The notes beneath the pieces are model-generated. The model was not told the origin of the DNA, did no database searches, and saw only the letters and a list, made by a program, of their open reading frames with translations. 42,373 nucleotides of DNA. It comes from Spirochaetia bacterium. Its GTDB lineage: Bacteria; Spirochaetota; Spirochaetia; PWKH01. Every line of letters starts with the position of its first letter. The first letter of the stretch is position 1. A program made the position numbers and the translations under genes. Shown piece after piece: positions 19,218 to 20,634 of the stretch. Location of the stretch: assembly GCA_007116075.1 (NCBI GenBank), contig SKJE01000052.1, positions 1 through 42,373 on the forward strand, written 5' to 3'.

Positions 19218-19247
19218 AAAACCCCGGAAATGCTCCGGGGTTTTTTT
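19218..19247 (+). terminator. Rho-independent terminator of the manA operon
   Basis: ACCCCGGA (19221-19228), loop AATGC and TCCGGGGT (19234-19241), flanked by AAA and a run of T to 19247, make a classic strong terminator. It insulates the manA-yaiI-nitroreductase operon from the LuxR gene. Confidence 0.9.
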
Positions 19248-19292: not shown

Positions 19293-19913
19293 ATGAAGGC
19301 TACAATAATTGGTTTATCAACGGTAATTCACAGCGGAATGATCCACATCCTGGAACATCATCTTGGATGCCGAGAGGTTGAGACCTGCAGGTATCTACAT
19401 GATGTACGGATTATCCGCAGTCAGATGGAGCCGCGGCTCTTTTGTGTGGACGCCGACATCCTAGGGAACCCTCAGGGTGCGGTGGATTCATTGGTGAAGC
19501 TTCAGTCCCGGGGAATCTTGATTGTCTACGGGAATCAGCGGGAGGTTCCGAGAAAAATCTCCCTGCAGCTGATTTCTCTGGGGGTACGGGAACTGCTGGA
19601 TGTGACCAGACCGGTGGATGAGGTGCGGCAATGGCTTGCTCAGCAGCTCCCATTGTATCCCCTGAAGGGGGTGAAGGAGGTATATGTAGGAGAGCCGGTG
19701 AAGAAAGTATCCCGGCTGACACCACGGGAGCGGGAAATATTGAAGCTTATCAGCAGGGGAGATACATCAAAGGAAATCGCCTATGACCTGGGTCTCTCCC
19801 TGCACACGGTTGAGTTCTACCGTAAGCGGGTTATGAAGAAAACAGGAGAGCACTCCATAGCGACCTTGACCAGATTGGCCTTACGTTCGGGAATATCATT
19901 CCTGTGGGAATGA
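19293..19913 (+). CDS. LuxR/FixJ-type regulator with degenerate receiver domain
   Basis: The 206-residue protein has a C-terminal LuxR helix-turn-helix, LTPREREILKLISRGDTSKEIAYDLGLSLHTVEFYRKRVMKK (about 144-185), the standard pattern. The first 125 residues follow the length and alternating helix-strand pattern of a receiver, with FCVDADIL where the phosphoacceptor Asp strand would be, but the N-terminal acidic pair is missing, so control by phosphorylation is doubtful. Only a weak AGG precedes ATG 19293 and no clear promoter is seen in the 45 bases after the upstream terminator, so it may be poorly expressed or read from a promoter I cannot identify. It lies 23 bases before a small exported peptide gene and probably regulates it or senses a related signal. 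No sensor kinase is nearby. Confidence 0.8.
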   Translation: MKATIIGLSTVIHSGMIHILEHHLGCREVETCRYLHDVRIIRSQMEPRLFCVDADILGNPQGAVDSLVKLQSRGILIVYGNQREVPRKISLQLISLGVRELLDVTRPVDEVRQWLAQQLPLYPLKGVKEVYVGEPVKKVSRLTPREREILKLISRGDTSKEIAYDLGLSLHTVEFYRKRVMKKTGEHSIATLTRLALRSGISFLWE

Positions 19914-19936
19914 AATACATTACTTGGAGGTTTTCT

Positions 19937-20296
19937 ATGAAGAAGATCGCAGTACTGCTGTTGATCATGATCCTGGTCAGTTCCAGTGTCTTTGCTGCTG
20001 GGGGAGGGCAGTTCTCCTCGGTAGCCGGGGTGCCCATGAGCGAAACCGAGATGGAGGATACCGAAGGGGAGGGGTTATTCATAACCATGCTCGGCGGAGC
20101 TGCCTTTGGGGCTCTTACCTACCTAGCTGACTGTATGAGCAGAAGCTCAAAGCCGACCTGGAAGGGAACGGCAACGTCTGCATCCATAGGCGCTATTGCT
20201 GCGGTAAGCCCTGTTCTTGGTGCGATGGCCGGACTGGGTGTTGCTTCCGGAACATCCTACCGGATCGGAACCCATTATCTACGAAACGAGCTGTGA
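19937..20296 (+). CDS. Small exported Gly/Ala-rich protein with bacteriocin-like double-glycine-type motif
   Basis: The 119-residue product starts with a Sec-type signal peptide (KK, hydrophobic core, SSVFA-A at about 20). Residues 34-46, MSETEMEDTEGEG, resemble the LSxxEMxxxxGG processing motif of class II bacteriocin leaders, and what follows is hydrophobic and rich in small residues, with GGAAFGALTYL (53-63), SIGAIAAV and GAMAGLGVASG. It ends in a basic YRIGTHYLRNEL. Together a Sec signal plus a double-glycine-like site is unusual. No C39 peptidase transporter is in the window, so export would rely on Sec. ATG 19937 has TTGGAGG seven bases upstream. It overlaps the next gene (GTGA), which encodes a membrane protein that could be an immunity protein. 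I do not recognise the family; bacteriocin-like is an inference. Confidence 0.72.
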   Translation: MKKIAVLLLIMILVSSSVFAAGGGQFSSVAGVPMSETEMEDTEGEGLFITMLGGAAFGALTYLADCMSRSSKPTWKGTATSASIGAIAAVSPVLGAMAGLGVASGTSYRIGTHYLRNEL

Positions 20297-20586
20297 GTGC
20301 GGACAGATGGTATCTCCTGTATTTCACGGTTCTGCTGATGCTGGTAGTCATCCTGCGCTTTCGTGGAGGATGCACGGAAGTGTCCTTGCAGGCGGTAGCT
20401 GCAGGTGCACTGACGGTGGTGATCCTGGCGCTTATACAGACTGCAACAGTGCTGGGTACGCTGCCTGAGGACAGCAGGGAACGTATGCTTGTCTTCGACC
20501 TTCGGCTCTATGTGATCTATATTGCATCACATATCCTGCTGGTGAAAAGCATATACCAGGGATTTCGGCAGATCTGCAGGGGATAG
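20293..20586 (+). CDS. Small three-helix membrane protein, possible partner or immunity protein
   Basis: The 97-residue protein begins at GTG 20293, sharing GTGA with the end of the peptide gene, so it is translationally coupled to it. Hydrophobic segments at about 6-22 (WYLLYFTVLLMLVVILR), 33-57 (LQAVAAGALTVVILALI) and 70-88 (LRLYVIYIASHILLV) predict three transmembrane helices with short loops. No domain is recognised. Coupling to an exported, glycine-rich peptide and its small polytopic nature resemble bacteriocin immunity proteins, but the same features fit a subunit that assembles with the peptide in the membrane. It is the last gene of the LuxR cassette and is followed by a strong hairpin shared with asnS. 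Confidence 0.65.
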   Translation: MSADRWYLLYFTVLLMLVVILRFRGGCTEVSLQAVAAGALTVVILALIQTATVLGTLPEDSRERMLVFDLRLYVIYIASHILLVKSIYQGFRQICRG

Positions 20587-20597
20587 TATTATCGACC

Positions 20598-20634
20598 ACC
20601 ACGAGGGGGAGTTTTTTTATACTCCCCTCGTGGT
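20598..20634. terminator. Hairpin between the membrane-protein gene and asnS
   Basis: ACCACGAGGGGGAGT (20598-20612) pairs with ACTCCCCTCGTGGT (20621-20634) apart from one bulged G, with a T-rich loop. It fills the 57-base gap between a rightward and a leftward gene, so it can act on both. Confidence 0.65.

Follow-up and report, generated by a model that had tools for sequence, protein, structure and literature searches.

The locus examined here lies in a stretch of spirochaete DNA of 42,373 nucleotides (hereafter the window) and carries three ORFs, all on the forward strand. The first, at positions 19293–19913, encodes a 206-aa LuxR-type regulator with a GerE domain (E 1.2e-16). The second, at 19937–20296 and preceded by GGAGG at 19926–19930, encodes a 119-aa peptide precursor that combines a Sec signal, a bacteriocin-type leader and a Gly/Ala-rich hydrophobic core. 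The third, ORF3, at 20293–20586, begins with GTG and encodes a 97-aa three-helix membrane protein; its start overlaps the stop of the peptide gene in GTGA, which bears out the translational coupling proposed in an earlier note on this DNA. On the left, the locus is bounded by an intrinsic terminator that belongs to the preceding nitroreductase gene (19218–19244, forward strand), an 11-bp stem plus T-run folding at −17.7 kcal/mol (z −3.7 versus shuffles), and a strong hairpin between ORF3 and asnS (20598–20634, no strand assigned; −25.1 kcal/mol, z −5.3 versus shuffles) is a probable bidirectional terminator. Both hairpins folded far better than shuffled sequences, and the three ORFs were as the earlier note had described them. 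No RNA families or tRNAs were found in the window.

Residues 1–20 of the precursor (19937–19996, forward strand) form a Sec signal peptide, with a helix over residues 2–20, a hydropathy of 2.56 and a cleavage-like site, VFA-A, read by eye. Residues 34–46 read MSETEMEDTEGEG, and within them residues 34–45, MSETEMEDTEGE (20036–20071, forward strand), make up a leader motif with M-12, E-8, M-7, T-4, G-2 and E-1. Thus, the joining of a bacteriocin-type leader to a Sec signal, as claimed earlier, was borne out. The predicted mature peptide of about 73 aa (20075–20293, forward strand), delimited by a putative cleavage site, contains two hydrophobic Gly/Ala-rich segments, compared with three hydrophobic segments in ORF3, and a single invariant Cys (C66). 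No domain that would explain the precursor in another way was found: neither the peptide nor ORF3 had a significant match in Pfam, NCBIfam or PHROGs, nor did the peptide in PDB. The AlphaFold model of the peptide was poor (pLDDT 58). A degenerate DNA pattern for E[ML]xxxEG[DE]G matched once in the 2.2-Mb genome, with no match for the reversed control. A looser leader pattern, which demanded G, D or E at −1 (A or S variants lay outside its coverage), matched at 69 places, among which the window peptide was the only convincing ORF with a leader behind a Sec signal.

Three other genomes, of which two belong to the same genus and one to the same family, encode homologues of the peptide. They are labelled Spirochaetaceae/Spirochaetia, and from their CSSed isolate names we take them to be soda-lake sediment MAGs. 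Only these three relatives were returned from the search of genome contigs, and no homologues were found in viral contigs, phages, plasmids or other sampled Spirochaetia genomes; sub-threshold matches in many spirochaete genomes were discarded, nearly all of them being signal-peptide matches. The peptide is 55–63% identical to its three relatives, with 44 invariant columns in the alignment. None of the four homologues lacked the leader, which read L/M-12, E-8, L/M-7, T/A-4 and G-2 with class II spacing; E-8, E-3, G-2 and the G after the −1 residue were invariant, and the −1 residue was E or D. In all four genomes, the regulator and peptide genes lay between the nitroreductase gene and asnS. 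A mobile-element reading was rejected, since the flanks were identical in kind in all relatives.

The earlier note had treated regulator, peptide and small membrane protein as one unit, and this was upheld in part only. The regulator gene was directly upstream of the peptide gene in every genome (4/4), whereas ORF3 was present just in the window genome and in G003 (25% identity). It was absent from G001 and G002, both of the same genus, where the peptide gene and asnS are about 39 and 97 nt apart, respectively, and no relative of ORF3 was found elsewhere in these two genomes. With ORF3 lacking from half of the genomes, immunity would not be obligatory and the regulator-toxin-immunity triad is not the conserved unit. 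An obligatory toxin-immunity pair was rejected on the same ground, and ORF3 is a candidate for an optional immunity protein rather than an obligatory partner.

For the regulator, the GerE/LuxR DNA-binding domain was the sole domain recognised, and the domain search gave no Response_reg or receiver match even at E<=10. The column of the would-be phospho-acceptor held no conserved Asp among the four homologues, which makes the earlier description of an unphosphorylatable-looking receiver a fair one. Of the two parts of a LuxR-type response regulator, a GerE helix-turn-helix and a phosphorylatable receiver, the protein thus has the former, and its N terminus appears to be a degenerate, unrecognised receiver-like region. 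Identity of the regulator among the relatives was 38–44%, below that of the peptide.

A Pfam search found one C39 peptidase domain in each of the four genomes, in every case standalone and with no ABC transporter. These C39 proteins have about 200 aa, an N-terminal hydrophobic stretch from which the Sec signal was judged, and the invariant Gln, Cys, His and Asp. They scored above the Pfam C39 cut-off, and their best NCBIfam matches, FapD and FilB, were both well below the curated cut-offs; for the FapD equivalog (NF058616) the best score was 49.1 bits, where the cut-off is 330. No match was obtained from a PDB search with the C39 alignment. In three genomes the C39 gene overlaps a gene for a Sec protein of 217–230 aa, and in the fourth it is cut by the contig end. 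This coupled protein, which has no Pfam match, is probably an outer-membrane barrel protein (OMP). The pair sits at recO-lon, in the order recO-C39-OMP-lon, and is thus unlinked to the peptide at nitroreductase-asnS. Of the features of a FapD-type system, then, a standalone, Sec-exported C39 whose catalytic residues are intact occurs in the same genome and is coupled in three genomes to the gene for the presumed OMP, while linkage of the substrate gene to the C39 gene is lacking. The co-occurrence of peptide and C39 is drawn from four related genomes. The earlier suggestion of export by Sec rather than by a peptidase-type ABC transporter therefore stands as regards Sec, and no C39-ABC protein was found; the part to be corrected is that a C39 peptidase, standalone and encoded elsewhere in the genome, is probably involved.

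Among 395 Spirochaetia genomes, standalone C39s separated cleanly from ABC-fused C39s, and several of the former had neighbours with a Sec signal followed by a leader: LGEKELNAIEGE (L085), LTDAQMQGISGR (L089), LSETEMEEATGA (L093), LGEQDSAAVKGG (L123) and LSIDDAEIISGG (L124). In this first spirochaete set, the enrichment of a leader regex near C39 was weak (p 0.06 for the strict and 0.20 for the relaxed form), and a few Sec proteins matched the motif by chance. An independent second set, of plasmid records picked by C39 similarity alone, gave a stronger result: the previously fixed regex matched 5 of 27 Sec neighbours versus 1.03 expected from shuffles (p=0.0015), and a broader regex, defined afterwards, gave 9 matches versus 1.4 expected. 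The matches included Acinetobacter (LSRQEMKDTQGA, LSNQEMKDTQGA) and two Deinococcus loci (LSDEELDGVTGE, LSDAELDEVKGE), to which the broader form added Vibrio coralliilyticus (MTPEEAEGTEGK) and Fap-type operons with a FapE-like protein (LTDDEMSSLRGG). In a prospective check of a new genome (G585), a protein with a Sec signal and LTETEMEGIVGG started directly beside the standalone C39, divergently; a second new C39 locus (G432) had no such neighbour. As in the window family, the −1 residue is acidic in both Deinococcus precursors and in L085, and such a residue, unusual for C39 sites, may mark a sub-specificity.

In the majority of spirochaete loci with a standalone C39, no adjacent gene encoded a protein with Sec signal and leader, and no adjacent substrate was visible at the Campylobacter and Thermus plasmid C39 loci. 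Separation of substrate and C39, as for the window peptide, is therefore no exception. On two Campylobacter plasmids (L211:3162-4594, L220:111-1549) an OMP-like gene overlaps that of a standalone exported C39, and no leader-bearing substrate is linked to the pair. A conserved six-gene cluster shared by two spirochaete families (L091:1585-7330, L092:2032-7308) encodes a protein of about 300 aa, a Sec protein, a membrane protein, an ABC transporter, an exported C39 and an OMP-like protein, again with no obvious leader-bearing substrate. An apparently decaying locus (L087:5977-7760) retains a truncated C39 and a frame with a Sec signal and LSDSEIVIITGG that lacks a good start codon.

Two natural swaps, one of leader and one of cargo, argue that the second leader works. 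The cargo at L089 and L093, which have Sec signal, leader and standalone C39, is homologous to that at L130 (BLAST E about 5e-8), and an LRR partner is shared as well, whereas L130 has a classical non-Sec N-terminal GG leader and a C39 that belongs to an ABC exporter. The same leader swap was seen in a second cargo family, between L230 and L130 (E 1e-4). The cargo swap involves two syntenic Deinococcus plasmid loci (L217:3889-4924, L224:4216-4872), whose leader regions are 58% identical over 38 residues. One carries an Ntox33 toxin (E 3.7e-23) and, behind it, DUF4279, reported as a probable Ntox33 immunity protein (PMC13304343); in the other, a Gly-rich hydrophobic peptide precedes a membrane protein of 63 aa. 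The window peptide and ORF3, as predicted from their sequences, share the form of the latter pair. At L130 itself (L130:2058-8529), the C39-ABC exporter gene was apparently split by a transposase-like ORF, with an LRR protein nearby, and two precursors had the same GG leader, with 65% identity over the first 74 residues and different cargo downstream.

A double-glycine leader is normally taken as a cytoplasmic signal for export by a C39-ABC transporter, and classical C39 sites have G, A or S at −1. The window peptide resembles class II bacteriocins and microcins (PF10439, TIGR03949) in leader spacing, in its Gly-rich two-helix core and in having a small membrane protein as neighbour, and the consensus L-12, E-8, L/M-7, V/I/T-4 and G-2 was found in all four homologues. 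It differs from them in the Sec signal in front of the leader, in the E or D at −1 followed by the invariant G, in the lack of an HMM match, in the inconstancy of ORF3 and in export, since the Pfam search of the four genomes found no C39-ABC transporter and the sole C39 is standalone. The comparison with the Fap system is complementary. That system comprises FapD, a periplasmic C39 peptidase, FapF, an outer-membrane pore, and the subunit FapE (PMC5557850, PMC6173800); FapD is Sec-exported and its catalytic Cys is needed for Fap secretion (PMC5557850), its cleavage substrate has been stated to be undetermined, and five further phyla have been noted to possess FapD-FapF pairs (PMC6173800). As in Fap, the window family has Sec-exported substrates, a standalone periplasmic C39 and an OMP gene adjoining it, and FapE-like proteins have the same second leader behind a Sec signal. 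Unlike in Fap, the cargo is a Gly-rich hydrophobic peptide rather than an amyloid, its gene is unlinked to those of C39 and OMP, and the C39 scores far under the cut-off of the FapD equivalog (49 versus 330 bits). The precursor is therefore one whose leader is like that of a double-glycine bacteriocin and whose route is like that of Fap, and it departs from both in defining features.

The FapE-like proteins adjoining FapD-type C39s have a leader of GG type behind the Sec signal (LTDDEMSSLRGG, ITDYELATMRGG, LADGELAHLRGR, LSEEVLARQRGG; L225:5588-6094, L216:5576-6259, L223:5590-6234, L215:5582-6298), which is a concrete candidate for the FapD substrate site.

Parallels in layout occur on plasmids. 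Like the window family, the Deinococcus loci have a regulator, a precursor with Sec signal, leader and an acidic −1 residue (E), a small partner gene, a C39 and an OMP, and the cargo is interchangeable; unlike it, they hold C39 and OMP in the same cluster and their regulator is a full two-component pair. Two Acinetobacter plasmid loci (L213, L214) share a Sec signal, an EMKDTQGA-type leader, a Gly-rich core, an exported FapD/FilB-like C39 and an OMP, but have Ala at −1 and, in L213, two precursors per locus. By hhalign, the window cargo matched those of Acinetobacter at 82%, Deinococcus at 68% and Vibrio at 3%; the likeness to the first two is suggestive, and homology between the window and Deinococcus cores is no more than possible. 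The bacteriocin-like layout proposed earlier is thus strengthened by its recurrence in Deinococcus, with exported C39 and outer-membrane barrel, by a peptide and small-membrane-protein pair in Vibrio, and by the toxin domain and likely immunity protein that fill the same slots in the syntenic Deinococcus locus; the absence of ORF3 from two of four genomes weakens it.

Taken together, these data suggest the following course, conditional at each step. The LuxR-type regulator would set expression of the peptide cassette. The 119-aa precursor would cross the inner membrane by Sec, and its second leader, MSETEMEDTEGE, would be recognised in the periplasm by the standalone, Sec-exported C39 of FapD/FilB kind from recO-C39-OMP-lon. 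Cleavage near the G-E/D-G site would free the Gly/Ala-rich, presumably membrane-active peptide of about 73 aa, which would exit through the outer membrane, perhaps via the C39-coupled barrel protein. Among readings of the leader, maturation by Sec and a periplasmic C39 has the best support, and we consider it probable. The nature of the cargo is an even call, in which we lean towards a bacteriocin-like toxin on account of its composition, the slot that such a peptide shares with a toxin in Deinococcus, the small-membrane-protein layouts in Vibrio and Deinococcus, and the weak profile similarity to Acinetobacter and Deinococcus; counted against it were the absence of ORF3 from two of the four genomes and a vertically stable locus, which is unusual for bacteriocins. 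Our best explanation as a whole is that the precursor is bacteriocin-like, exported by Sec and matured by a periplasmic C39, that its processing machinery is unlinked and that ORF3 would serve as an optional immunity protein. Confidence in it is evenly balanced; E or D at −1, the unlinked C39, ORF3 in two of four genomes and the core without a domain match all count against it.

The same route might instead deliver an envelope, adhesive or amyloid-like surface component, with the barrel as exporter. FapE-like proteins share the layout of Sec signal and leader (LTDDEMSSLRGG, ITDYELATMRGG, LADGELAHLRGR), and a dispensable ORF3, a vertically stable locus and the constant pair of regulator and peptide (4/4) would suit such a role; we nevertheless regard it as rather unlikely, because the window core lacks N/Q-rich amyloid repeats and is a Gly/Ala-rich, two-segment hydrophobic peptide like that in the Deinococcus toxin slot. 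It is improbable that the peptide is an ordinary small Sec-exported membrane protein whose leader likeness is coincidental, the exported C39 having other substrates. The acidic −1 residue, the unlinked C39, the uninformative AlphaFold model and the chance motif matches in other Sec proteins would all fit this, but the motif is unique in the genome at the strictness applied, occurs in 4/4 homologues with invariant E-8, E-3 and G-2, and the same layout recurs beside standalone C39s in several phyla, cases with E at −1 included. Peptide signalling, in which the processed peptide or leader is a pheromone sensed directly or indirectly by the LuxR-type protein, is marginally less probable still, since the strict linkage of the regulator (4/4), its receiver-like region without phosphorylation features and the two-component pair that adjoins a gene of this kind in Deinococcus are offset by the lack of a linked membrane receptor or importer, by a 73-aa hydrophobic product unlike known pheromones and by the presence of that two-component pair with the Ntox33 toxin too.

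Our preferred reading thus remains a bacteriocin-like precursor exported by Sec and matured by a periplasmic C39. No description of such precursors was found in the open-licence literature, where FapD studies were found, and their novelty is provisional. More broadly, there is about an equal chance that the window belongs to a widespread route, spanning Spirochaetota, Deinococcota and Pseudomonadota, in which the bacteriocin-type second leader of Sec precursors is cut by a periplasmic FapD-like C39 coupled to an outer-membrane barrel and which carries toxins, bacteriocin-like Gly-rich peptides and Fap-type subunits, the window substrate being one that has become unlinked. If this is true, double-glycine leaders behind Sec signals would explain what FapD-type enzymes cut, and a class of secreted peptides and toxins would come to light that is expected to escape bacteriocin search tools relying on an N-terminal leader or an ABC transporter.
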